Below, piece after piece: positions 43,000 through 64,000 of a stretch of 64,000 nt of DNA. Position 1 is the first letter of the stretch, and every line of letters starts with the position of its first letter. Source of the stretch: Gymnopilus junonius (lineage: Eukaryota > Basidiomycota > Agaricomycetes > Agaricales > Galerinaceae); NCBI GenBank assembly GCA_015501075.1, contig JADNYJ010000096.1, positions 86,114 to 150,113 of the forward strand, read 5' to 3'. The position numbers were made by a program, and so were the translations under genes. Under the pieces are notes generated by a model. It worked only from the letters and a program-made list of their open reading frames with translations, did not search any database and had not been told where the DNA came from.

Positions 43000-44424
43000 T
43001 TACCCCCCCTCTACGCCGCTGTCCTTCCTCGTCGTTCGCTAGGAACTCATTCACAAGGTTTCTCGCATTTTTCAACTCACTCTCGTCCATCCACTCATTC
43101 TCTTCCGTTGGAAAACCCAGCCACTTCACCAATAATTGCCTCTTCCCTCATCTAATCCGCTGTGAGAGAATTTGTTCAACCTCTTGTTCGGGTTCGCCAT
43201 CTACGAGCTCAGGTGGTGGGGGTTCCATGTCAGGTGCACCACGGCGATATGGAAGGAGTTTGGAGACATGAAAGACTGGATGGACTCTCCATGTGGCGGG
43301 AAGTTTTAAACGGTAAGCACGTTCTCCGACCTTTTTCTCGATCTTGAAAGGTCCGAATCGACGATGTTCCAGTTTAGGAGATGGGCGGTTCGTTTTTAGG
43401 TTCTCGCCCTCTAGGAGGACCTCATTCCCTTTTCAAAATCGGGCATATCTTGGTGTTTGCGATCATAGAAGGTCTTCATATCTCTCGCTGCTCTCTCGAG
43501 TGCCGCCTCGCCTCTTTCCTCAAACTTTCCATTCTAGTTGCAAAATCTGCTGCAGCTTCCACCTTCTCATCTCGCTTAGGTTCAATTCCTTTTCTTGGAT
43601 GTCTTCCCCAATTTAAGAAGAAAGGTGATTCATGTGTGCTCGAATTCACCTTGTCATTATGACTGAATTCTGCAACTGCCAGCCACTCTGCCCAATCGTC
43701 TTGATGGAAATTGACAAAGATGCGTAGATACTGCTCAACTTCTTGGTTCATGCGTTCGGTCTGCCCATCTGTCTGTGGATGGTAGGCTGTTGAAATATTG
43801 GTTTTGATACCAAATAGGCAAGTGAGAGCTTTCATAAAGTTTGAAATGAAAACACTTCCTCTGTCACTAATGATGGATTCAGGCATCCCAAACGTTCTCC
43901 ACACATGGTCTCGAAATAGGCGGGCAACACCCTCGGATGTGAGGGTTGTATTTGTGGGTATGAGTTTAATCATTTTCGAAAAACGGTCACAATAACGAGT
44001 ATTGAGTCATAGCCTAGACTCAAGGGTAAATCTGTGATCAGGTCCATTGAGATGCATTGCCACGGGGCGGAGGGAATAGGATTGGGTGCTAGTAGTCCTC
44101 GGGGCTTTCCTCTGTCTGCTTTAGTACGCTGGCAGACGTCGCAAGTGTCAGTGTAACGACGGACGTCAACATGAATGCGCAGCCACCAATATGAGCGAAG
44201 AATGAGCTCTGCGGTCTTGTATCGTCCAGGGTGACCAGAAATGCATGTGTCGTGGTGCATTCAGATGATGTCCAAATGAAGACTTTGGTTGGAGGTACGT
44301 ATATGCGTTTCTGCCACAGTACCAACCCCTCATCCTCTTCCCAACCTTTTTCTTTCATTATCAGCCTCTTTTCCACAATCTTCTCTCTCTGAGTCTCACT
44401 ATGAATCCTCTCCACTAGTGCCAT
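43000..44424 (-). pseudogene. gypsy integrase and chromodomain
   Basis: The minus strand reads an H-H-C-C zinc region (HPGRYKTAELILRSYWW, CDVCQRTKAD) at 44,240-44,120. The DDE core follows: MDLITDLPLS, IISDRGSVF, then HPQTDGQTERMNQEVEQYL. A GPY-like stretch (RRFGPFKIEKKVGERAYRLKLP) and HPVFHVSKLLP come next. Last is a chromodomain ending QLLVKWLGFPTEENEWMDESEL at 43,130-43,050. The chromodomain targets insertion to heterochromatin in this family. A TGA at 43148-43150 lies just before QLLVKW and a frame change lies near 43,975, so the protein is not continuous. Confidence 0.85.
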
Positions 44425-48503: not shown

Positions 48504-49486
48504 CTAATCATCCTCACTTTTGGGAAAATCCTTGTGAAGTTCATCATATAGCCCACGCCTGTCTTCCTCTGAAAGACTATCAAACATTGAATGTACTTGA
48601 TGATGGGCAGGTGGACCTCGACGAGGTTGTGGTTTTCTAGGACTAGGACAATTTCTTGTGAGGTGCCCCTTACCACTGCAGTTGAAACAAGTTATACCAT
48701 CACCAATATTCCCTCCTTGAGCACGATCAAGGTCCATTGGTATGCCGTGGCCACCAAAAGTTTGGCCTCCAGTACTCGATTTGGTGTTCATCTCTCTACC
48801 TCCACTGTGTCCACTTCCACTGATATTTCCACCTCCACTCTCACTCGTTGTTCCTGTAGTCAAAGTTCCTCCGCCACTTCCTCCACCTCCACTGGATGTA
48901 GCTCGATTAGGGTGGATTGGTGAACCCCAGTAATTTCCTCGGGGTCGATTCTCCTGATGAGATGAGAAATTTCTGAAAGTGCCGGGCTTCTTTTGGTTGT
49001 GATTGAGATTCCGCCAAATCTGATCCTTTTTGATAGCAGTCATCTTCCATTGAGCATAAGTCTCAGGTGGGGGGTTGTTGTGCATATACTCTCGCATGAG
49101 AGGCTCATTGATATGTGTTTTGACAAGATGGACTAGAGCAGTATTGTTAAATCCAGAGTCATGCAGGTACGTCTCAAATTGATCAAAGTAGATCTCGGCA
49201 GTCAGGTTTTTCTGGTACAGGTTCTCGAGGGTGACTTGAGCATCATCTCGAATGTCAAATGACAGGAATTGGCTCTTTACTGTCTCCAAGAACTCATTAA
49301 AGGTGCCTAGGCTTTTCGCAGGCTGGCCTCTTTCATCCTTTTCCTTTCGGTAAGCCTCCATGTTATTGGTGACCCATTTCTTAGCTGTACCCTCTTGCAT
49401 GAAGGATAGGGCGACATGAATCTTCTTGTCGTTGGTGTCATAGATATCAGGGTTGGCCTCGAGAAATAGGAGAAGGCTCAACATCC
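48504..49486 (-). pseudogene. gypsy gag, 3' portion, interrupted by the Plavaka-type element
   Basis: The frame reads MLSLLLFLEANPDIYDTNDK, KIHVALSFMQEGTAKKWVTN and FDQFETYLHD, then a Gly/Ser-rich region and a CCHC knuckle (CFNCSGKGHLTRNC, about 48,700), and ends SEDD-stop. The missing 5' portion lies at 63923-64000 beyond the inserted transposon (start MATKSHKEVKV, then YDGNPHKL). Joining the two across the 2-bp target duplication keeps the frame. One TGA at 63925-63927 follows HKL. Confidence 0.9.
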
Positions 49487-49488
49487 AG

Positions 49489-49518
49489 TGTCAGAAAACC
49501 CCGGGGGGCATTATAATG
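49489..49518 (+). repeat. Left terminal inverted repeat
   Basis: Thirty bases matching 63891-63920 in inverse orientation with a single A/G difference at position 5. The run CCCCGGGGGG and the palindromic GCATTATAATGC are shared. Confidence 0.95.
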
Positions 49519-49616
49519 GCCATAATGCTGGTAATTCTGGATCAAGCTCATGATGTACTTATCATGTGAAGTGGATATTCCGTAATCAAAGGCCTTGCAT
49601 TATGATTCAACGAGGT

Positions 49617-49664
49617 GCATTATAATTGATCGAGCTGCATTATAATTGATCGAGCTGCATTATA
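49617..49664 (+). repeat. Subterminal 20-bp tandem repeat
   Basis: The unit GCATTATAATTGATCGAGCT occurs at 49617-49636 and 49637-49656, followed by a partial third copy. GCATTATAAT is also part of both TIRs, so these are probably subterminal binding sites for the element's transposase. Confidence 0.85.
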
Positions 49665-49669
49665 TAATT

Positions 49670-50029
49670 ATGAAGGTTTAATTATAAGGTAGTGAAGTAA
49701 TTACGAGCAATAGGGCATATTACAATAGTGATCGTGAATTACAATGTAGGGCTATTACGAGACTAATAGAATCACTTTACTGTCAACTTACTTACTACAT
49801 TACATATTGGGCTACGCTAGGGTTCTTAACTGTTAACTAACTAACTACACTATTTACTAACTACACTACAGTATTTGGGACGCTTTTACAAGTAGGGGTT
49901 CAAGTACACTGGTAAAGGTCAGTTTCTTTAAGTTATTATTAATGGGATTACTTACTTGTCCTTACGTTTAAATTGGGTCAATATTGACCTGATAAGAGAT
50001 TAGATTAGATTAGAAAGTAATGAAATTAG
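49670..50029. other. Left subterminal non-coding region of the Plavaka-type element
   Basis: AT-rich and rich in TTAC/ACTAAC and GATTA short repeats (AGATTAGATTAGATTAG at about 49,998). No gene is seen. Confidence 0.6.
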
Positions 50030-50112
50030 TGACAACGAGCGGAATCGAACTGACGACTTACTAGAGAGAGTGCTCCAAAACTAGAATGATAACCAACTGC
50101 GCCATGAAGGCA
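50030..50112 (-). pseudogene. tRNA-like sequence inside the Plavaka-type element
   Basis: The minus strand has a good RNA polymerase III A box (TGGCGCAGTTGG) and B box (GTTCGATTCC) at tRNA spacing, after a GCCTTCA acceptor-like start. The anticodon arm is imperfect (TCTAG/CTAGT around a loop TTTTGGA) with an 8-nt insert. Neither the T-stem (GTCAG/CCGCT) nor the acceptor pairs. It is a degenerate tRNA or a tRNA-derived SINE head. Its presence within the transposon's left arm is unusual. Confidence 0.45.
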
Positions 50113-50336
50113 CTTACAATGTTATAGGCTTAGGGCAATAGATAGAGCATATTCCCTAGCTAGTTTGCCCTTCAGCTCATAGTACATGATGTCTGGTGCA
50201 TTCAAGTAGCAATGCTTGTTCATTTACACAATACTAGCAAAGATATTCACAAAGACAAACAGTTTATAATCTTCACTATTTAATCTAAGAACCCATTGCA
50301 ACATATCTAGGCCCTAATGCACCCTGCTACTTTAAG

Positions 50337-52865
50337 TTACCTGCGAGTCTTTGCCTTTGGAGCTGGACCAGGAGCAGCATTGCGACGTGGTCGCAAGGAA
50401 CGGGGAGCTTTCTCAACTGGAGAAAAGGAAGGGCCTGGAGAGGCGGATCTAAGACTGGGTGAAGGTGTGGAGCATGAAGGTTGTGTTTGACTGCGCACAG
50501 GTCGAGAAGAGATAGGCTGTTGAGTTGTCTCTGAATCAGGTACAGCTGCTGCCTTGGACACTGGGCGAGGACGAGGATGAGGGCGAGGAAGCTCTGGAGG
50601 GATTGCTTGTTCCTGGGGAGAAGTAGGCTCACCCATAAAGGCATAGGTACGTCTGAGTGGATGAGCTTCCGGAGCCAGTGAGGTATCTATGTCAACTGGG
50701 GGGCGCTGGACTACAGTCCTGTTAGAAAGGATCTCGCCATCCTCTTCATCAGTCTCATCGTCGAAGTCACTGAGAATAGAGGGGCTGCTACCGGAAGTAG
50801 CTGAATCTTCAGCCGTGCCTTGAACCTGCTGCTGTGCCTCTTCCGCTCCTCCTTCTCCTTCGTCGTCCCTGTTACCCTGATCCTCTCTCATCTCCATGTT
50901 CTGTTCAGCTTCGAGATCTCCTCGGAACTGCTCATGATCTGGTCCCACTGCCTCTATGTCCACTTCTGCAGCTTCTCCTTCATGGACGTCAGCCTGTTCA
51001 TTTTGTCCAGCAGGCTCTCTGTACAGGCCGCCAACCTCATCATTTTGCCCTTCAGCCTCTCTATTCTGCTCTCCATGCTGCCGTTCCAACTCGTCATCCC
51101 TGTCATACTGAATACCTCCCCACACCCCCTCATTGAATTCACCTTCATCCTGATCATGTATTGCCATGTCAGCTGGCTGTTGCCTACCTCCTTCCTCCGA
51201 GCTGCCCTCATCAGAACTCTCCTCGTCCATGTCATCATCGTCAATGGTAAGGCCTGCGAGCATGTCTGCAATTTCATCACCATGGGGATTAACAGAATCC
51301 GCATCATCGTCATCGTCGTCTCCAGCATCAGCGCTTTTTGGATACAATTGCTTCTGCCACGTCTTCATCACTCTCCTATGCCACTTTGGCTGTTCTTTGC
51401 TGGCCTTGATGATGATTTGGCGGTACGTCTCAAATCTTTCACAATATTTGATCTCGGAATTTTCACCCTGCCCAGGACTCTGAAATTCCTTGTCCTTCGA
51501 AAAGAGATGGATTGCCTGCAATAAAGGAAATATGCGGTCAATCAATGGATAGACTCTGTGATAAATGATAGAGGTACTACTTACCACAACACAGCACCAG
51601 GAGATTGAGCCTGGTGTGACCTCGTGAGACGCAAAGTCAGATTTAAATGCACTTCCCTTCCTGATTGGTGCCGACATGTGTTTGTACATGCTCGAGCCAT
51701 ATATAACTATTCTTCCGATCTAAAAAGCAAATTAGTGAATGACAGAGAAGTGGAATGCACATGATATTCTCACCTGGAATAAGACAGGATTTAAGAAGAG
51801 CCCGGGTTTGTTCATTGAGTCAAGGTCTTTGAACAAGAGGGGAGGCATCAACGGCATTGCTGAATAGGGAGCGGTAGCATCAGGGAGGCCAAGCAGGCCC
51901 TTCCAGACTTCTTCACGATTCCGCCGTTCCTGGTCAGCAGCGGCAGACCAGCCAAAAACAGTACTGGGCAAATTAAATAGTTCACTGCTTATCTTGCGTA
52001 TGCTGTTGATGGAAGTCCCGCGGTGCCTCCGAGCAATATGTATGAACTGTAGTGATCTGTAAGAGAACAAAATTCACATTGACAACAAGCCACTGACTTC
52101 AGTAAGAAAAGCCGATGGCAGTTCAGGCTCATCCTTGTCACTCGACTCCTTTTCTTTCCCCGACTTATCCTCAAATTCGCTGTGCCATTTATTAGGGAAG
52201 AAGTTGAACAGGATCGCAGAGAAGAAATGAGGACTGTTGTTGGATTCAAACTGAATGGGGTCGAGAGAGCTGAAGGAGGGGCGTTTAACTTTCAAAAACT
52301 TTGCTGAGGAGAGGAATGGATACTCTTCAAACTGGAACAGATGTGCTCGATGGCGTATTTCCTCTGCTAGTCCAGCCGGCTCTCCGCTCTTCATTGTGTT
52401 GCTCTTCTTGGCCTTCTGACTCTTCTCTTGCCTGCCCTTCTCTTTCCCGCCCCTCCTGCTATCAATGTTATCAGCGTTGACTTCATTGCTGGCCCCATCC
52501 TCTCTATCGCCTTTCTTGTGACTGTGTCCTCGATCAGTGTTTCCTCCCTTATCGGTCATAGGCTTGCTTCGGACACATGCGGGTACCGCTTCCATAATGG
52601 CCTGATTTCGAAGAAGCTGCTGCATTCGATGGAGCTCTCTGTCTTTAGCATCCAGAGCAAGCTGGGCCTTCTTCACGGCCTCCTACCAAGTCTATGTTCA
52701 GAACATCGGTACCCACTGATAAGCTACAAAACATACCTTGGCTGCATCCTCAGCGCTGAGTCTTTCTGAAGGTCGCCGGTGAGCATCAGCCTGCTGCGAG
52801 GTATTGCCAGTAGACGCAGGAACAGGGCGATTGCGATGGGATCCAGAACCAGAGGATGGAGGCAT
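50337..52865 (-). CDS. DUF6698-like acidic cargo protein
   Basis: The likely start is MPPSSGSGSHRN at 52865. A short coiled coil follows (KKAQLALDAKDRELHRMQQL), then a basic linker (KEKGRQEKSQKAKKS). A conserved core lies in several exons: FGWSAAADQERRNREEVWKG, LLFKDLDSMNKPGLFLNPVLFQ, IGRIVIYGSSMYKHM, EVTPGSISWCCVVV and FSKDKEF...YCERFETYRQIII. The C-terminal half is very acidic (DDDDDDADSV, DDDDMDEESSDEGSSEEGG), then Pro/Ser-rich and basic, ending KAKTRR-stop at 50337. Introns seen include 51.52-51.59 kb and ~51.72-51.77 kb. The order (small GLP/WKG block, NPVLF, a VTPG block, F-x-Y) resembles fungal DUF6698 proteins, whose function is unknown. No damage was noticed. Its position inside the transposon suggests an accessory role, possibly DNA or chromatin related; that is inference. 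Confidence 0.65.
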
Positions 52866-53537
52866 GCGAATGGTATCAATATCAATGAGTAATGATGTAG
52901 GAAGATTGGCCAAAAATGCTGATAGGCCTTGGACAGAGTTGCTTTGTTCTTATACCATTCTGGCCATCCACTTGGTTCAGCATCGCTGATTACACTGCTG
53001 GTATCAATTGGTCCTTGGAACATTGCACAAGGACTTCGAATTGCCTGGGCCTTCAGGTGATAAGTTTGCGCCGAACAGTTCATTTAAGATAGACAGTCTG
53101 ACGTACAAAAAATTGCAGCTCTTGTCATTGAAGGTGTCAGGTATCTTGAAGCGAACACCAAAAGTGTATACTTCCAATTGTAAGCACTCGAAACATTTAC
53201 CAGAAGCACAATGTGCCATTCATAATTCTAGAAGGATTGGAAAGGAGGCTGTTCAATGACAATGCAGACTCAGTGAAACAGAAATCCCGTACCTTTTTAG
53301 AGAACATCATATGAAATTGTATTCAGAGCGCTATATGTCAATGGGCGGCACTGTACACATGACCCAAATGTGATGCTAAAACGTCATCCAGTACATGCAG
53401 GAACTTCCCTTCGTTAACCAGATTGTCGGGCCTTACATTCGATATGCTCTCCACAGTCTTGAAGCGAAAAGACTGCACAAATGTTCTGGACTATTGCAGT
53501 TGCACACATGGCATCAGTTGACGCTTGCCTCGAAGGG

Positions 53538-56500
53538 TTATAAAACCATGATATGTAGTAAACAACATACATTCGGAATGATGCTATCACTACTGTGGAT
53601 ACAGTGGTTTGAGTCATATGCAGATGGAGCCAAACAGCCATTGAGATGGGAGCACAGAATTGGGTAAGAATTAAAAAACAATGGCGATGCACCGCGAGCC
53701 GAAGTAGAAGCAACGGGAGAGGCTGCAGGTATTGGCGTTGATACCGACGCTGATGAGCCCTGATGGGTAAAGGGACCATATGTGACCGGAACAATCATCT
53801 CCACGTCCTCAGCAACCGATCTCAGTGCCATGATCTGACTAGGCAGCAGCGGCTGCGGTTTCGCAATCTGAGAAACTGACGTGCTTCCAGATAAAGAGAA
53901 AGATGTGCCAATGGGGAGCATAGGCAAAGAGGGAGTTGGAGTGGTTGAAATTGTCAGTGAAGAAGAGCCCAAACTTGGTCCACCTTCAGAAGAATTTGAA
54001 GGAGGAATAGGAACAGATCCGTTTGTAGGAGTCGTCGCCGTTGGAGCAGTGGTGGATAGAACTCCAAAATTTGGCCCTGAACCAAAACTAGGACCGGCTG
54101 AATGCATCCTCACAGGTGTCTGTGGACGTGTCCCAGGTGCAGAAGGAAGCTCCTCATCTGAAGGAAGGTCCCATGGCTCGAATGGTAGACCAGCTCCTAC
54201 GCGTCCTATCCGGACCTACCAAGAAAATTAAAACATAATAAATAATGAAAAAAGAAGAAAATACTGTACCTTCTTAGTCAGCACCACATTCATCCTCGCA
54301 AGCGTATCCAGCGAAGGCAAACTCGGCCGACTCGAAAACGCAGGTCTCTGACATGCGGGCCTTGTCCTCGGCGACAAAATAGGAGATCCACGCCCAGCAG
54401 GTGGCGAAGAAGGGGCAGCAGCTAAACCCGGAACGACAGGCTTTGGAGGTGCAAGGGGTGCTAGATGTGGATGAGGAGGACGGGGAACAGAGAGTATTGG
54501 TGAGGCTGAGGCTGAAGTTGAGGCTAAGCCTGAGCCTGAGGTTGACGCGGAGATAAAGGATGACACTTGGGTTTGGGTTGAAGTTGTGGTAAAGGATGAA
54601 GAAGCTGAAGCTGAAGCTAAACTCAGGCCTGAACCTGAGACGGAAGCTAGGGCCGCGGCGTCAAGGGAAGCAAGGTTAGGCAGTGGTAATTCATGTAAAG
54701 GCGAACGAGGTATGGGTGTAGGAGAAACAGGTGATATCACCGCACCAGATCCTTCAACAGGGGTGAGTGGCAAAGGCACTTGCGCGAGTGCTAGAGTCGA
54801 TCTGCTGCTGGAAGGAAGGGGTGGAATTGGAGGAAGGAAAGGAACAGAAACACGATCGATTGGAGGCCCCGTCAAATTCGCAAACGGATCATCGTCCAGC
54901 AAAAAATCCGGAGGAGGCGAGGTCCGCGGTGAACTATAGCTGCTTATACTGAACGTAATGCTCCTCTTCCTCTGATGGTGCTCCGGCATTTGGATCATCT
55001 CTGGGCGAGAGGTACGATAGGCGGAAGTGTATCCATGTCCATAAGCGTCATTGATGACGTCGGATTACTGGAAGTGGGCATGAGAGGAATAGGGACATCT
55101 TGGGTTTGGGGGAAGTAGGAAGAAGAGGACGGAAAGGGGTAGGATGCACCTGACGGAGTGGACGGTGCAGATGGCGCTGCGCCGGACGGTTTACGCGTCT
55201 TGCCCAACCCAGAAGATGCGTATTTGGTCGGGGAAGAAGGAACGGAGGTCGTGGATAGCAAGGGGCTCTGTAGGAAAGAGGGCACAAAGATGGCTTGGAG
55301 TGAACCGCGTCTTTTCTTGGCCATGGCAGAGTCTACTGATTTGAGAGTCATGTCTTTTACTGATTTGGACTTTGTGGCGCGTTTAGGTGGGCAATTATTG
55401 GGATTAGAGTGTGGATTGGCAATAGGACTAGAATGTGCGTGATCAATATCAGAGAGCGGAAGTGGTTTGGGCGGCTTGGGAGTAGGAAAAAAGAGTTGTT
55501 CAGCCGCGTCGTCGCCGTCGTCGTAATAGTAATCATACAGGTCAGCGAAAAAATCCTCGCTCGCAGTTAGACTGGACCTGGTAGTCTTAGAAGTGGGCGC
55601 TGCGGAGGCCGCAGTGGTGCTGGAATTAAAATCCAAGCTGGGGTAATGTTGAAATCCGATTTTGGCTTTCCCTGCAACACGAGTCTGCTTGGAACCGAGC
55701 AAACATGCATCAGCGTGAGTGATTACGGAAAAATATAGAAAAAAAAGTGAGAGAAAGTAATGAGAGCTTATGAAACGCTATTTGATGCTGACAAGTGTTG
55801 ACAGCAGGCAAAAGCCAGGAACATGGGATGACGACATGTCGGGTCGCTAACGCGCACCCAAACCAATTTGGCTGACGTGTTGCAACTCTCTCAGAACGTA
55901 GAAACACGGACTCACCAAGGGAGGTTCCTCATCCTCTGCCAAAGATTCCTTGGAACGAGCAAGTCAGTCCTTAGGGGGATCTCTCACGAGAACAACGCTC
56001 TGTGCTTTGAACGGTAAAACCGGTGTGGGTGGTATGCTGTAAGTGGATCGTTTCCTTGGTCGAGGTGGAGGTGGTGTGGGTGGGCGCGAGGGCGAAAAGA
56101 AGGAAGGACTGTGCTTGCCAGACCGAGTTGTTGAAGGTGGTGGTACAAAAAGACGGTGCAAATGAGGAGGGCAGGGAATACAATGGTGATGATTGAAAGA
56201 AAGAAAAAAGAAATAGACTGGACCTGGTAGTCTTAGAAGTGGGCGCTGCGGCGGCCGCAGCAGTGCCCCGCAAAGTCATTGAAGAGGTGTGGCCAGAGGA
56301 ATCAATCGGCAGCGGATTCATTCTTGCTGCAAAAAGGCTCAGGAGAGCGGGAGCAGGGCAAATGCCTCACATGCTTGCTACTCCGGCTAGTGCTGGTAGA
56401 CGATCTCATGACGATGACGCCGACTGCAGATCGTCATCAGAGTCATCGTTGCTGCGCATCGACTGGCTGCTCTTCCGCAAATTGAAACCCGATTAAGAGC

Positions 56501-57029
56501 CGTGGGCCAACCAGATACAGAGAGGGAGGAGGCGAGTGGTGCGGAAGGAGCAGCATACGTCCACTTCGTGCAAGGCAAGTGGGCTTGGGTGCATAGGATT
56601 GAAGAGAAGGGAACTCCTCCTGCTCGGTCTTGCTGGCGAGGGAGGTGGCGAAGGTACATGGCGGTCAGAAAAAGGCACCTCTGGCTTGCATTTGCCAGCA
56701 AGGGAAGCGGAGTGCATACGAATCGTACTGTACAGACCTAAGAAAAGAAAAGAAAGTGTCAGTTTATTGATAAGAAAAAAGAAGTGGAGAACGCACTGAA
56801 CGGTCCTCCCACACCTTGGATCCCCCTTTATACAATCCCAATCTATCAGAAAGAGACCCACATCCTCATTCTGAGGGAGGGGTTGCGCTTGAGGAGACGA
56901 GTGGAGGACGGGAGGTCGAGGTGAGAGCCAAGATTGAAGGTTCGGGTCACACACGTGACATCCCGGAAAGGATGCGGCGGAGAGAAACGCAAGCCCCTGC
57001 AGGTCGAGGGATGTACGTCTAAGGTCCAA
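53538..57029 (-). CDS. Ser/Pro-rich low-complexity protein (cargo), probable multi-exon gene
   Basis: Minus-strand exons of similar character follow one another. Pro/Ser-rich N-terminal pieces lie at 57,029-55,970 (RPSRRSSLLFNPMHPSPL). Next come 55702-54995 (ASEDFFADLYDYYYDDGDD, ATKSKSVKDMTLKSVDSAMA, basic-rich) and 54998-54270 (SITFSISSYSSPRTSPPPDF, DDDPFANLTGPPIDRVS, RPSLPSLDTLARMNVV). After a 54-bp intron (54216-54269) comes VRIGRVGAGLPFEPWDLPSD with a Ser/Thr-rich tail to about 53,640. RPSLPSLxTLAxMNVV and VGAGLPFEPWD look like conserved motifs of a basidiomycete protein of unknown function, so this may be a captured host gene. The junction at 54,995 (ATGA overlap) needs a frame change: a frameshift, an undetected intron or two genes. 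A 40-bp segment is duplicated at 55,570 and 56,216. Confidence 0.5.
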
Positions 57030-57227
57030 AATATATATGTTTGTTCTTAGAATTGCGCCAAGATGCCGAATATACCTGTTTCGTGAGCCGCCGAGGTGTA
57101 ATATTGACCGAGGTGAAGCATAAGAAAGGATGATCTAGTCACGTGATATTGGCATGCACAGATCAGCGCGGTCGCGCTTCGCGTCACGTCAACGTTTATT
57201 CTTGTCATCACCACTGCTTCGGCTGAG
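57030..57227. promoter_or_regulatory. Divergent promoter between two cargo genes
   Basis: The 200 bp separating the starts of the minus-strand Ser/Pro-rich gene and the plus-strand cargo gene contain ATATATATGTTTG near 57,032 and CACGTGA near 57,140. Head-to-head genes in so short a space probably share control. This is inference from layout. Confidence 0.35.
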
Positions 57228-59701
57228 ATGCCAGAATTCAGAGAGTGTCTGGCTCATTTTCTTTACTTATTTACCCTCTGGAAACTGCATAGAAGCCGAT
57301 CTAGCTTTGTACTCCTGGGTCTCTGGGCTGATTACTCTGCCGCGGAAGTTAAACGGACAGGGAAGGGCAAAGACGGTCTGGTCCAGAAGCTTGACGCGAT
57401 GTGCACATTCAAAAGGGGCTCTAAGGGCTGCCAAACCCATATTTTCCCACAAGGGCTTCGCAAGACTCAAGCACAGAAGAATCCTCCCTCTCTGAACACT
57501 CTGGAACTCAAGGCAATTGAGCATACTAGTCGGGCGATCTTCCTGATGTTTGGAAGTATGCGCCTCAAGGTATGTTAGTCAATATATTCCTACTACTTAC
57601 TTAAGATAAATTTAGGTTGCCTACCTGATGCACACATCTATTCAATGGTACAAGCGTGCCCATTGGGATAAATGCGTCAGACATGTCTCTAAAGATGTCA
57701 GTTTTCACTTCACTGTACTTCAGCTATATAGTTCCCTTACTCTTGCATTTCATCATTTAGAATCGGGGAAAAATTGGACTTGCACTAGAGTTCAAAGACT
57801 ACATCATTACATTTATAACAAATGATCTGGTATTTCAGGTACGTTATGTTCGTTCTGCTCCTTGTATAACCAGCATCATTTTTTGATTATCAATTATTCC
57901 CATATACTCAGCCCATTTGGGAAGAAACCTTTGACAAGAAGAAAAAGAAATGGGGCCTAAATCCCATCCCGCCATCTATTTATGATGATTATTCTTATTT
58001 TTTGACTAAAGTTGCCAACTGGATAGAAACACGATCTAGGGGCATTCGCTCAGGTCTGGCCTGTGAGGTCATGAGATCTACTCAGGACGTATGGTGTGGT
58101 ATTGGCGTCTACACTGTTTGTGAACTCTTCTTTGATGCTGGCATGTTTTCCTATTGTATACTGCTTATATGAATTGGTTTTAAATAATTTTGGCAGGCAT
58201 CTCACCCTTTGTTACAGAGGCAGAAGTGTTTGATTGTCCATCCCGAACAGCTCGACTATGTGAGGCCTTTTTTTCTTATGCTCACAGGTCATACAAGAAA
58301 CTTCCGTGAGTAATTTGCTTACATTCTATGGTAAAGAACCTGATGAAAGGCTACCAGAAAGCTTTTGTGATCTGCATCAGTTGACAATATCTTAGCGCCA
58401 ACTCAGGACCAGCGACTTAGATATATGTATTGGCTCCATGTATATGCTAAAGATGCTGTTGGGATTCCGACTCATCTGGCCGCACTTATCGATGGTTACA
58501 ATGTATGTCATTTAACATAAAAGACCCCCTAATATCTAAGATAATCTTATCAGGCTGCAATACATACTCTTGGGAATCAGCCTCAAAACTGGTGCAGAGA
58601 TGACAATGAGCTCTCGCTTTATGATCCCTTTGACCCAATATACATCCAGGAGGCACTGGAAAGCAAAAGTCTCTCATTAGGCCACCTTATTTTTGGTGAG
58701 AAGGACTGGATGCACTTACAGCAGCAGAAATTTTGTCACCAAGCTACAGACCCATTAACATTAATGTTCATGGAGCGTGGTGAGTCAGACTAATCAAATT
58801 CTCATAGGAGAGTAAAATTATTGACCACTTTATTCAGGCTTGTTAGAAATGAGACACATCTTCCACCAGGCTATTATGAAAGCCTTTATCCTTCACAGCA
58901 AAGAGCTAACTATGTGCAGCGCCCAACATATGCTTATAATGCCAAAAAGCAGATCTGGTCAGTGGTTCAATGTTTCCCATCAAATTCTTGCAGCACTGCC
59001 AGATTGGAGGGGTAAGTGCTTTCACAATGGTGACCATGCCATACTAATGTGATTTTACTAGGAAAAGTGATCAAGTATATGAAGAATTTACTGGACCAGA
59101 GAGGAGACGCCGCCTTTTCTCAACTATTGTGACTGAAAGCCAGGGAGTCGCCATTGGTCCTCTGGAATACTGTGGAAATGGACGAATTCTCCAGCTCCCT
59201 TCGGGAAGAAAACAGTGCATTTAACCATCTCTATATTCAGATCTGCAATCAAATGAATTTCTTTTCAGACTTTCATTAGTTCATAAAGCAGACCCTATGC
59301 TCTCCATCCGTCAAATCACCCAACAAGCTAAACATGAGTTTCGCCTTAAGAATAATCTCGACCAGCCAGGGAAGGCCAAGGTGGCAATGACTGAGCGGCA
59401 GCATATCACACAAGCTGAGTATATCAAGACTGCGGTAGAGACATACTGGTTATCATGATCCCTATCAGAGAGCTGTAGCTCATCTCCCCCTTCTTCAAGC
59501 CCACCTCCTTCCCCTTCCAACACTACTTACCTATGTCCAGAAATAATGACCAACCCAGAAAGGAAGTCTCCACCCAGGAAGAAGCGAAGAATAAGTGCAG
59601 ACAAAAGGATAGCACTGGGAGAATGTGATTTGGATGCAGAGATGCAGGAGAAAAATAGCATTGCTACTAGACAGCGCCGTACTCCTACAGGAAAATTATA
59701 A
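57228..59701 (+). CDS. Unrecognised multi-exon cargo protein
   Basis: Starts MPEFRECLAHFLYLFTLW. Exon 1 is 57228-57569. A second exon begins at 57616 (VAYLMHTSIQWYKRAHW), and a GTCAGT...TTTAG intron leads to NRGKIGLALEFKDYIITF and a GTACGT donor. Later blocks read PIWEETFDKKKKKWGLNPIP, YFLTKVANWIETRSRGIRSG, QRLRYMYWLHVYAKDAVGIP, LGHLIFGEKDWMHLQQQKF and SIRQITQQAKHEFRLKN. An in-frame TGA at 59456-59458 follows YWLS. The same frame then stays open for 80 codons to TAA at 59701, including a strong nuclear signal (RKSPPRKKRRIS), so the TGA may be a recent nonsense change or lie in an intron. It ends 15 bp from the convergent transposase. No known domain was recognised; I looked for and did not find a TET/JBP-type dioxygenase motif. 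Nuclear action is likely. Confidence 0.6.
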
Positions 59702-59716
59702 AATAACTTTAACTAT

Positions 59717-62700
59717 TTAGTTGTGTAAAGATACAGATATCCTGAGCTTCATGGTTTGCTGCCTCCACCATATATCTTCATCCAGCTGATCAAAGAGAAT
59801 AAACTCATCATCATATTCCACATCATGGGCTGGAATCAATACTGCCCCACGTATAATTGTTTCAACATGTATAAAGGCAGCCTTTGACCTGTGATGGGCA
59901 CGAACTCTGGTGAATTTAAGGTCCTTGTCATATGCAGGCCTCTCAGGGGCTGGGATAGGAGCATCATAAGGCAGGATGAGGGCGATGTATTGTGTTTTTC
60001 CCCCAATGTAAATCCCAAAGATATACAGAAGACGTGCAAAGAAAACCCCATTATCATCAGCATCAATAATCACGCAGTCATATCTGGGCCGGTGATGGAA
60101 GGATGGATGTGCGCGTACAATATCTGTCATTTGGCGAGCTGAGACCTTTGACTCATAATTGACACGCAGGGACTGGTAAGGGGATATCTATAATATAGTC
60201 AGAGTTGCAGTTCAGAAATATATAAAGACACTGACCTCGTCAAAAATACCCAAGTTTATATGAGTACCCAACATTGAGGTAAGTGCCTTTGATAGTTGCT
60301 TCCGGAAATTTTTGAAAGCACTATCCCCATTGTGGCCAAATTGGGATTCAAGATATCCAATTGTACAGGGGGGGACTGCAGAGAACAGTGATACATGGCC
60401 TGTACCAATAAACTTGGTTTTGTTTGGTGCATCTTCTGACTCCAGATTAAGTCGTTCTACTTCTGCATCATCAAGGTCATCAATCTGTTCCCGGATCATG
60501 GTGGATATAACATCCTTCTCATTCAAGTTTAGAATCTTAGAGTTTAGGATTGACCAAGTAAATTTGCAAGTCTATTTGAAAGAAAATAATCTACCTACCT
60601 GCACGCCAAAATCCTTGAAGTTAGTCATGAGCTGATAAAAGTCTTTCAAAGGGCAATGTGCCTTTTCATTAGGCTTTGTGCTGAAATTGCGTGCAACACC
60701 TTTTCGCCAGATATCATTGAATACATGTTTGTGAGAATGAGCTTTTATGAAGTTCCAATTTTTATCTGAGTCAATGTCAATAGATGAATATTCCTGGAGT
60801 CACAGTATTAATTGCCTCTGAAAGCATGGAAAATATTTCACTCAACCTTCAATGACTTCTCAAAGTCTAAGAGAGCTGTTTCCCCAGCTTTGGTCATTGA
60901 TTCGAAGTGGAGCGTCAGTGAGGCATACATATGTAAATCCAGAAAGCTCCTAAGGACTTTGAGGAGGGCATAACCAGCTGGAGACTCTTTAGCTGTCAAG
61001 ATGTCATATGCTGCATACAAGAGCAACTAAAATCCATGGGCATTAGATACAAGATGCCTTCATGACTTGAAAAAATAAATATAACCTTGGCTATATCACC
61101 AAATTTTGAGCCATCGGTAAATTCAACTTTCATCACCTCAGAAAAATGATTGAGGCCTCTCCAATGTGGAGTTTCATCAATGCTAAAAATTATTTTCTGA
61201 GCAAATAACAAGAAAATAATGAGCTGGCATATACTATCTATCTAGTTGCTTGGATTTTTCCTTCCACCTTGGCAAAAGCCCGACAAGGCATTTTAATTCA
61301 GGAAATATATGGTCAGCAAAGAGGCCACTTTGATGAGCATGAAGTCCATCCCAGCTTAGTGCCTGATATGGATCACAAAGAAACATCTCCAGAAGATATT
61401 CTTTGCAAGAATTTAATATAGCAGCATCAATGATTAAGCAAAGGTTCTAGAAAAGAAGACAATTTGGGCCATACCTGCACATCCCGAAGCCCATATTCCT
61501 TTAGAAGCTCTTCTTTTTCAGAGGCATTGAGTTTCTTTGCTCTTTCATATATCTTCATCATCAGCTCCTTTGTTCGAAGTTCATAGGTCTCAGATAAATC
61601 AATTAGATTAAGCTGAGGAGCAAGGCAGACTGGGCATGGCATACTGCCCTTGAGACCACGTATCAAAGCCATGACACATCTGGATTTATTAGAACAACTG
61701 ATTAAGGGCATGCAAACAAAAGAAGAAAATATACAGGCTTACTGCTCCTCATAGTCAGCACTGAGGATCAAGATGATTGGGAATAACCAACGCAAGACAT
61801 TATCACCACATGTCTTGTAGAAACCTGTTTGCCCATACAACGAATAGATTCGAGGATCTCGCGTAATGCCTCATGCCAGACAACGCATTTGAAATTGACA
61901 TAGCCTTTTTTATTTGATTCTCCAGAGTCTTCAGTGATCTAGCACCAAGTGAATTTAGCTTGGAAATATGAAAGGAATAAAGAATATTTTGTACAACTGG
62001 TAGCCACCCAACAAGGCGCCCGCCACCAAATCCTTCACCATTTCGGATATCTGCAGGTAGATTTGCACATCTTGCATACACTGGGTAACCCTTTGCAGTT
62101 CCAAATGATGATAGTCGGCTTTTATCTGCATATATAAGTAAAAAAATAGGAGAGGCACCCTTGGGTAACTTTGTCTGAGAGAGGTAAGCCTTTTATTACT
62201 ATGAGGTACATTGAACATTGATCACCTGGATGTCCCACCAGTCATTGGCCATCCAAGGCTCATCAACAAATCTCTCCCACTCTTTCCCACCATATCGATA
62301 GTGGCGCTCTGCATCCCACTGAAATAGCGGAACAAGATTAGGATCATCAACAAGTTCCATGATCCAACTCCACAGTGGCCGTACAGAGACTTGAAATGGG
62401 ATCTCTGCCTTCTTGTATGGTACCGTAATTGTTTTATGTTCAAACTAGCAAAAATTTATTAAGAATAAGCATAGCTAAACATTACTGTGATACATGTCAG
62501 CTATTACTCATGCCAGTCCCTCGCGTTTGACGTGCTTCAGCCCAAATTTTTTCAAGATCGCGTGCTCCGGAAAGGGTAAAGTCATCAGGGTGGTTAATTG
62601 CCTTTTGGAAAAGAGACAGCAGGACATCAACTTGCTTTGTATTCAGATGGGATTCGAGCATAAGTTCAGCGATCTCAAAATCGAGACGAGTGCGGAATGG

Positions 62701-63458
62701 TGCCCAAGGTCGTGCCCTGGGAGTTGAAGCATCTGATTCCATAGGACGTGCATAATGTGGTCCTTGATAACCTTCGAAGTGAAAGAACTGGGTCGCTTGA
62801 TGACTGTTTGGATGAAAGCAGATTTTGATGTCATCAGGCAAGAGACTAAAATCTGGGGGTATCGTGTCAGCATCCATTTGGAGGATGTCATCAATCTCTG
62901 GCAGTGGCCCTAGAAAATAAAACGTGAATACAATGCTCAAATCAGATGACAGTATTGAACTTGTTCACCTTCATTCTCAAATCTGGTATCCAGCTCTGCA
63001 TTAGACTCAGATGCAGCCAAGTCATCTAGGGTTAAGATGTAAGAGTAAATACAATATTCAAAATTCAAAATTTAAATGCAAAAAGGACGTACCTGATCCA
63101 TCGGACTTAAACTAGATGTACTCTCATGAGAGGCTGTACTGACAGCCATATATGATTTGCAACCTGCTAGTGTTAGTCATGAAATCATTGAGATATCAAG
63201 AAACTCAAGGATTGACGTACCCTCTGAATCAGGCTCTGACTCTTCTGGGTCGAGTTCCTCCACACTCTGTGGCTGAGTATCGTGTCCATGCTCTCGGATG
63301 CATTTCCTTTGGTGGCTGGCAAGCCCACGGCGGTGAAAGAGGTCACCACAATACTCACAGATCTCAGTCTTCTGAGTTGTTGCACGTCCACGTCTTGTCT
63401 TCTGAGCAGGATGGCGGACAATTTTCTTCTTGGGCTTAGAAACTTTTGGCTTTGCCAT
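59717..63458 (-). CDS. Plavaka-type transposase
   Basis: N terminus: MAKPKVSKPKKKIVRH, then a C2H2 finger (CEYCGDLFHRRGLASHQRKC). Short acidic exons follow, then the family core: ARPWAPFRTRLDFEIAELML; FEHKTITVPYKKAEIPFQV; FVDEPWMANDWWDIQ; YARCANLPADIRNGEGFGGG...LVGWLPVV; CVMALIRGLKGSMPCPVCLAP; ELRTKELMMKIYERAK; RWRGLNHFSEVMKVEFTDGSKFGDIAK-type block; SPAGYALLKVLRSFLDLHMYASL; NFIKAHSHKHVFNDIWRKGV; NFSTKPNEKAHCPLKDFYQL; C-terminal HPSFHHRPRYDCVII and SKAAFIHVETIIRGAVLIPA. About a dozen exons with GT-AG introns were followed. No stop or frameshift was found in the parts checked. The protein would cut and join element ends at the 30-bp TIRs. Exact residue count and a few exon borders are unverified. 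Confidence 0.88.
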
Positions 63459-63890
63459 GAGAAATGTGCTGATGTGGTATGCTGGGAGAAATAGAAAGGA
63501 TGCTTACCGTGCCGCAGCTTTTAGAGCATTCCCTACTGTCAGGAACGTGTTTCCAGTGGAACTTTACTGGCACCATTGGTGTTAGTAGATCACAGGCCGT
63601 TATGTTATCTTGTGATCTAGGAGATAGCATTATGAAGCTGGTCCGGAGATTATGATAAGATAACCCAGCATCATGTCAATACTTTCACTGATCATAATCT
63701 AAAATTAAGTGTTATATCTCGTGTCATTCAATATGATTAAATCGGTCGACATTATGAACCGAAAGATGAACTCATCTTATCTTGGACTGAGTCATAAAGC
63801 CAGCTAGCCCTTGATAATCATCTCCGGTATATTACAATAGCATTATAATGCATGTCATAATGGGATTTGCCGAGAAGATAATGCGGTCAG
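63459..63890. other. Right subterminal region and transposase promoter
   Basis: No gene. It contains ATTATGAT/ATAATC motifs and CATTATAATG copies near the terminus. The transposase promoter must lie here. Confidence 0.6.
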
Positions 63891-63920
63891 CATTATAATG
63901 CCCCCCGGGGTTTTCCGACA
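63891..63920 (-). repeat. Right terminal inverted repeat
   Basis: Inverse of 49489-49518 with 29 of 30 matches. It is preceded by further GCATTATAATG and CATAATG motifs at about 63,838-63,880, mirroring those inside the left end. Confidence 0.95.
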
Positions 63921-63922
63921 AG

Positions 63923-64000
63923 TCTCATAGCTTGTGAGGGTTGCCATCGTACTGGACTGGCTGGGCAACCTTTACTTCCTTGTGAGACTTTGTTGCCATC
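63923..64000 (-). pseudogene. gypsy gag, 5' portion
   Basis: Minus-strand reading MATKSHKEVKVAQPVQYDGN then PHKL, a TGA at 63925-63927, and D. It continues into 49486 and below once the 14.4-kb insertion is removed. The ATG is at 63998-64000; the gag 5' region and LTR lie beyond the window. Confidence 0.88.

Follow-up and report, generated by a model that had tools for sequence, protein, structure and literature searches.

What kind of element lies inside a retroelement frame of the mushroom Gymnopilus junonius, and how did it come to carry genes besides its transposase? The locus belongs to a window of 64,000 nt (GCA_015501075.1, JADNYJ010000096.1:86,114-150,113, forward strand), in which a transposon of 14.4 kb occupies positions 49489-63920, with ends exact to the base. 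With a probability of about 0.8, we consider it a member of a PlavakaA lineage that combines a transposase with DUF6698 as its partner and collects host DNA between the two, which would be captured by template switching; this element holds in addition a plus-strand gene of predicted Fpg/Nei type.

Termini, insertion site and classification of the element

The element is bounded by 30-nt terminal inverted repeats (TIRs) that differ by one mismatch (left, 49489-49518, plus strand; right, 63891-63920, minus strand), and the dinucleotide AG is read directly outside both (49487-49488 and 63921-63922). Both features had been proposed in a sequence-only reading of this DNA and stand as described. TIRs with a perfect 2-bp direct repeat outside them were found in 15 of 15 elements tested, including this one; the test covered copies with both ends, leaving aside the one-ended copies of the family on contigs C133, C790, C75, C106 and C801. 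The termini, TGTCAG../..CCGACA, are of the 5'-TGT..ACA-3' type. The left subterminal region (49489-49690) contains 20-bp tandem units and six GCATTAT motifs in the left 200 bases, and the right one (63570-63920) six more in the right 350 bases. These outer segments thus hold 12 of the 13 motifs of the element (both strands), against 0.1 on average and never more than 3 in 2000 mononucleotide shuffles of its ends; the clusters are probably transposase binding sites.

The insertion target is a putative gag-like frame of an LTR retroelement on the minus strand (48504-49486, continuing at 63923-64000, the contig end). When the flanks were joined in a script, both sides shared one frame from an ATG, as had been claimed, but an in-frame TGA in the right flank adjoins the joint, so that the restoration of the frame holds only in part. 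A second gag copy that could represent an empty site was not found, the gag search giving a single match, the query itself.

The transposase gene is multi-exon (59717-63456, minus strand) and matches PF18759 with 168.6 bits (cut-off 26.3) over profile positions 13-322 of 325 when frames are read through. Together with the TGT..ACA ends and the 2-bp duplication, this confirms the proposed Plavaka-type identity and leads us, on these sequence features, to assign the element to PlavakaA. Starship elements possess a captain tyrosine recombinase and no TIRs; the TIRs, PF18759 and the length of 14.4 kb rule out such an element here, and the suggestion of a giant gene-carrying element does not fit this size, nor the 14.5 kb of a sister element described below. 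Iyer et al. 2014 reportedly dealt with TET/JBP, KDZ and Plavaka. For PF12851, taken as the sign of TET/JBP cargo, the genome gave 20 matches, 11 of them over the cut-off, and none on contigs C895 or C12, so that there is no sign of our element being of the TET-bearing kind. PlavakaA, in the available passages of Kojima 2025 (PMC12730594), has TGT..ACA ends, a 2-bp target duplication, a Plavaka transposase and agaricomycete hosts, all of which our element shares; the same passages place TET/JBP cargo among Plavaka only in PlavakaB. They describe for Plavaka neither host-gene fragments nor DUF6698 nor a glycosylase, the first two of which occur in the Gymnopilus element together with a predicted glycosylase.

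A second copy and the possible decay of the element

A second complete copy with the same genes lies on C12 between different flanks, where it has an AG duplication of its own; it is 98.6% identical, which implies that transposase and cargo moved as a unit, as expected for a complete element with passengers. The cargo is thus shared in full by C12 and in part by a copy on C75, and homologues exist for both the DUF6698 gene and the plus-strand gene; the outcome named in advance as fatal to the proposal, cargo absent from other copies or made of chance frames, did not appear.

The transposase had been thought intact. As assembled, its frame is broken by single-base length differences near 61,841 and near 61,389, two points at which it stays open in the C12 copy, and a third break probably lies near 63,095, depending on the splice model. 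Assembly error is possible at these breaks. No intact transposase and no intact glycosylase were seen among the copies read. Between the C12 and window copies, 148 of 171 differences are CpG/TpG changes, a predominance that makes the element look methylated. We give even odds to the view that the frame breaks and the single-base differences reflect true decay, both copies being dead relics: the CpG/TpG bias of the substitutions and several stops in the C12 glycosylase gene agree with it, whereas the single-base length differences are gains at some points and losses at others when these two otherwise close copies are compared, and the methods of the source paper name PacBio and Falcon, in passages that do not tie them to this species.

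Among the one-ended copies, C801 and C106 border on one and the same repeat family, at positions matching 7036-7040 of C390, the contig of the sister element. That they form a single copy split by an LTR element was rejected, since C801 has no resumed element in the part read; an assembly error may underlie their arrangement.

DUF6698 as a probable partner of the transposase

The minus-strand DUF6698 gene (50337-52865) is open over five exons (52865-52737, 52682-52098, 52046-51774, 51719-51585 and 51515-50337) that encode 766 aa, identical to residues 1-766 of the annotated protein P0001 (790 residues). Its DUF6698-like nature, already recognized by eye, is borne out by PF20414 (31.8 bits, cut-off 23.7). 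The coding sequence shows no indels in the C75 copy and five indel columns in the C12 copy. On 504 synonymous and 1794 nonsynonymous sites, the window gene differs by 10 synonymous and 17 nonsynonymous changes from C12 and by 18 and 38 from C75; as CpG changes are mixed in, the counts were set aside as a measure of selection. A protein search found two relatives, both in the Gymnopilus junonius genome, and a model from two sequences gave no usable fold (mean pLDDT 37). A tRNA-like stretch seen by eye near 50,080 was discarded, ARAGORN finding none.

The same genome contains a sister element on C390, a diverged PlavakaA, with DUF6698 in the same place and on the same strand. DUF6698 is therefore not odd cargo, and the picture of three unrelated extra genes gives way to one in which this gene recurs next to a diverged transposase of the same lineage. 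The slot between transposase and DUF6698 is filled in the sister element by different blocks matching other loci, one of them with an HSF domain, and the glycosylase gene is absent. Candidate donors of these blocks are C888 and C75, where the sequence was read, and C46 and C334, known from search matches. Weak matches (71-73%) on C221, C755 and C476 fall inside the C75-matching block, part of which may thus represent a wider family.

A captured host-gene fragment with a patchwork joint

In the window element, the slot includes a Ser/Pro-rich fragment on the minus strand (53688-56266), 95.7% identical to C668:176312-178792 over 2485 columns, with short pieces at 94%. It is a DNA copy that keeps introns and lacks the 3' end and start codon of the host gene, which is still present at C668, the likely donor; its frame is broken in the window copy. 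The proposed capture of a Ser/Pro-rich host protein therefore holds as to origin; the captured piece, truncated at its 3' end and lacking the host start codon, falls short of a whole gene. The donor family was recognized over no more than 5-12% of the query, with no G. junonius protein among the 20 matches. At the 5' end of the fragment, three non-contiguous pieces of the one donor locus are joined out of order: window positions 56214-56266, 56162-56213 and 53688-56170 correspond to C668 176862-176914, 175784-175835 and 176312-178792, with a 9-base overlap between the second and third matches (56162-56170). The stretch that follows, up to the plus-strand gene (56267-57227, searched as 56230-57140), matched only C12 (98%) and 33 bp of C390.

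We propose that the transposase would bind the subterminal GCATTAT repeats, cut at TGTC/GACA and insert with a 2-bp stagger, and that an excision gap or stalled copy would be repaired by synthesis, during which template switches at short matches could pick up host pieces; such capture would leave the host gene behind. Alternatively, two nearby elements or ends might have enclosed neighbouring DNA and mobilized it together, a route that is a section heading for plant Pack-TYPE elements in the available part of PMC8903248; the existence of one-ended pieces of the family (C133, C790) agrees with it. We regard this as unlikely, given the disordered three-piece joint with its overlap, the copy kept at the donor locus, and the lack of any TIR match when the whole element was compared by blastn with 8.5 kb of the C668 locus.

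A family with a predicted DNA-glycosylase fold

The plus-strand gene (57228-59458) is convergent with the transposase, starts with MPEFRE and contains the H2TH-like motif GIGVYTVCELFFDAG; in the window copy its frame is interrupted by a TGA near 58,370 and shifted near 58,851. One search found 114 homologous proteins, relatives in Pleurotus ostreatus and Coprinopsis among them, with many copies in several species. The product had been taken for an unknown nuclear protein; structure modelling instead predicts an Fpg/Nei-type DNA glycosylase fold. In a 593-aa family member, the fold spans model residues 2-456, followed by an extra C-terminal part, and NEIL1 aligns up to residue 455-457, with target-normalised Foldseek TM-scores of only 0.48-0.65.

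Fpg/Nei enzymes use an N-terminal Pro/Glu set (P2/E3/E6) in catalysis, and have an H2TH motif and a zinc or zincless finger with a catalytic Arg. The family resembles MutM and NEIL1-3 in predicted fold, in the N-terminal set (P2 in 40, E3 in 39 and E6 in 39 of 42 sequences) and in the H2TH-like motif (G226, G228 and Y230 in 46/46, E234 in 45/46), a strict pattern for it fitting 24 of 50 members. It differs from them by its extra C-terminal part, by being transposon-encoded here, and by its sequence: Fpg/Nei Pfam models matched none of 50 members, and a PDB sequence search gave no match at E<=1. The Fpg/Nei fold wraps DNA, and the protein might be a non-catalytic, DNA-binding accessory of transposition, as so diverged a family would allow; the retention of P2/E3/E6 in 39-40 of 42 sequences makes this quite improbable.

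Six other glycosylase-like matches occur in the genome (C878, C437, C322, C68, C91 and C138), some on short contigs, and neither PF18759 nor PF18758 (Plavaka/KDZ) lies beside them among the matches listed. We therefore dropped the idea that such genes regularly accompany these transposases, and the transposon linkage is shown for the window element only. This result, the broken gene in both copies and the sister element devoid of it would suit an ordinary host repair gene captured by chance and useless to the element, to which we give somewhat less than an even chance. Against it, no recent donor is seen, the nearest DNA relative being 73-83% identical by block, where the Ser/Pro fragment reaches 95.7%; the gene begins at the family's own ATG, which the fragment does not; and many copies in several species are unusual for housekeeping repair. 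An intact glycosylase would act on modified bases and perhaps guard the element from cytosine methylation or deamination products.

Relation to other gene-capturing transposons

Judged by gene content and donor matches, the window and sister elements are gene-capturing Plavaka with a transposase gene, akin to plant Pack-TYPE transposons. The window element holds within its TIRs a DNA copy of a host gene whose donor (C668) lies elsewhere in the genome; it is not non-autonomous in make-up, as a transposase gene lies inside the same TIRs, so that it works like, rather than is, a Pack-TYPE element. Helitrons use a rolling-circle mechanism and have neither TIRs nor target duplication. Those of Pleurotus ostreatus, also basidiomycete transposons, have captured gene pieces in common with our element (PMC4289320, in part). 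Pack-TYPE transposons, in the available text of PMC8903248, are plant TIR elements with copies of host-gene pieces, defined as non-autonomous; the Gymnopilus elements share the copied pieces within TIRs and differ in being fungal and in having a transposase gene. In Pyrenophora tritici-repentis, hAT and Tc1/Mariner elements are fungal DNA transposons that likewise unite a full transposase with a captured gene and have multiplied, called the first fungal transduplication in the passages available (PMC3538342). These belong to an ascomycete and to other superfamilies, their captured gene is H3-like and of unclear source, and a multi-piece donor patchwork such as ours is not described in those passages. 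Among the titles and abstract openings listed from the open-access literature, none names a transposon-encoded Fpg/Nei enzyme or a gene-capturing Plavaka.

Implications

These elements extend Pack-TYPE-style gene capture to a mushroom transposon with its own transposase gene and, because donor and joints can be read base by base, open the capture mechanism to study. They also uncover a large unannotated family of 114 proteins with a predicted DNA-glycosylase fold. It is a long shot that agaricomycete transposons carry in it a new Fpg/Nei-like family whose enzymes clear the element of methylated or oxidised cytosine, or of its deamination products. If true, it would do by base excision what corresponds to the work of the TET/JBP enzymes that other transposons carry, and would be a candidate for an excision step that is not known in fungi so far. 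As a hypothesis built on the predicted structure, this glycosylase type may take part in demethylation, and might help transposons to outlast host DNA methylation.

Element boundaries and family

What the sequence-only reading observed largely held, and its interpretation did so in part. The PlavakaA transposon is exact to the base as it had claimed, with terminal inverted repeats (TIRs) at 49489-49518 and 63891-63920 (30 bases each, one mismatch) and AG on both flanks. The contig (C895, of which the window is 86114-150113) ends 80 bases beyond it. End-sequence searches of the assembly (58 Mb, 898 contigs) gave 14 left-end and 16 right-end matches, this element counted, and all 15 elements with both ends have TGT-type termini flanked by a perfect 2-bp direct repeat: the window element, a second complete copy on contig C12 (21.9 kb including a nested insertion), a diverged sister on C390 (4172-18657, 14.5 kb, GT duplication) and twelve shorter elements (0.8-4.5 kb), which a transposase of the same type presumably mobilised. 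The test excluded copies having at most one end (C133, C790, C75, C106, C801). TGT..ACA ends and 2-bp duplications are described for PlavakaA in Kojima 2025 (PMC12730594).

The short relatives, sharing the TIR start and 2-bp duplications, are C69:17600-22105, C175:33529-35158, C779:116064-117788 and nine elements of about 0.8 kb; that on C69 contains extra sequence, portions of which recur elsewhere at about 67%. Outside the element, window position 43106 has a sequence like the 12 bases that open the TIR (up to one mismatch) and no matching duplication.

Further copies and state of the transposase

The search for further copies with the same cargo was successful: C12 matches the entire element at another site (98.6% over 12,705 columns and 98.8% over 1,737), with flanks that do not match those of the window. 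A third, partial copy (C75:1-4806, 97.9%) comprises the DUF6698 and captured regions, is cut by the contig end and lacks the left 346 bases. The element's right 489 bp, including the transposase start MAKPKVSKP, abuts other coding-looking sequence at C133:38590-39078 (L029:891-1379) and C790:153873-154361. This junction, common to two near-allelic contigs, suggests that promoter and start were fused to this sequence or that an internal deletion occurred; the adjoining 123-aa frame has no Pfam match, and no second TIR was found in the 20 kb examined.

With frame breaks read through and the first exon omitted, the transposase scores 168.6 bits against PF18759. It had been considered intact; as assembled, it is broken in both copies. 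The window frame is broken near 61,841 and 61,389, where C12 is open; a further break near 63,095 is probable but hinges on the splice model. In C12, single-base differences occur elsewhere and the frame is split by the nested insertion. This 7.5-kb insertion (C12:10938-18417, L024; 5-bp overlap), with direct terminal repeats of 348 bases 98.6% alike, is probably an LTR retrotransposon. Since single-base length differences run in both directions and PacBio and Falcon are mentioned in the genome paper's methods, though not linked there to G. junonius, some may be assembly errors.

CpG depletion and the predicted glycosylase

The element appears to bear the signature of methylated, deaminating CpG: substitutions between window and C12 comprise 148 CpG/TpG changes out of 171, 16 other transitions and 7 transversions, and CpG observed/expected is 0.59, against 0.84 in window bases 1-45000 and 0.88 in the C668 stretch, the likely donor locus discussed below. 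Outside CpG, 23 of about 14,000 sites differ, so the two copies are close in age. For the predicted glycosylase, base excision would be the likely chemistry. Given the CpG mark and the TET/JBP cargo of other agaricomycete transposons, we propose as our boldest reading, and an unlikely one, that it might help undo methylation or its damage; this genome gives no less support to its gene being a chance passenger. At least eight contigs have TET/JBP and KDZ matches at most 5 kb apart, in agreement with published TET-bearing KDZ transposons.

DUF6698 and the sister element

The five GT-AG exons of the DUF6698 gene give 766 open codons, identical to residues 1-766 of an annotated 790-residue protein, and the product exceeds the PF20414 cut-off. 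Transposase and DUF6698 have the same order and strand in the C390 element, at 43-74% (by stretch) and 31-44% identity, respectively, to the window; judging from the two families seen, DUF6698 therefore seems to accompany transposases of this lineage repeatedly. The leftmost 2.87 kb of the C390 family is present on C801 (98%), and much of the remainder on C106 (97.5% over 6,487 columns). An insertion of about 1.2 kb in the C390 transposase (C390:13508-14691, 8-bp overlap), absent from C106, includes 33 bp that match window 56616-56648 at 97% identity.

Capture of host DNA

The Ser/Pro-rich region (53688-56170), previously read as a probable captured host protein, is indeed host-derived, being 95.7% identical to C668:176312-178792 with introns retained, but it is not a complete gene: it lacks the host start codon and ends mid-exon, whereas the C668 open frames start earlier and extend beyond the break. 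Nothing else of the element was found in the 8.5 kb of the donor locus compared with it. The Ser/Pro open frame has 516 aa in C12, 512 in C668 and 278 in the window. A protein search with the joined donor exons, in which just the 7977 candidates with the most shared words were scored, gave 20 matches (844-1432 aa), none from G. junonius; several are named PH-domain proteins (PF21989 in 5 of 20, PF00169 in 2), and as they span just 5-12% of the query, the family name is based on a short conserved stretch.

The 5' joint is a patchwork of 53 bases of host 176862-176914 and 52 of 175784-175835, followed by the long block, whose match shares 9 bases with that of the second piece. The block ends at the identical donor base in all three copies having it, which argues for one capture, before spread. 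The 960 bases at 56267-57227, common to C12 and otherwise without sizeable genome match, are possibly another captured piece whose donor was lost.

In C390, the interval that separates DUF6698 from the transposase contains blocks that match C75:39533-41581 (92%, plus a 71-base piece of C75:42663-42733; the donor has a frame of about 600 codons), C888:29972-31959 (95%) and, by search match alone, C46:212729-213244 (88%) and, more weakly, C334:186889-187206 (73-81%), with junctions showing an 11-base gap, a 3-base overlap and a 7-base gap. An open frame in the C888-like block encodes an HSF DNA-binding domain (PF00447, 60.5 bits), a motif also visible by eye at the donor.

Beyond the demonstrated ends and 2-bp duplication, the transposase would cut and join the element and may bind its subterminal GCATTAT repeats, with DUF6698 taking part, we suggest, in the transposition process. 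Copying with the donor retained, together with template switches, fits gap repair, and the joints and donors suggest that such template-switching repair is how these elements would have captured host DNA.
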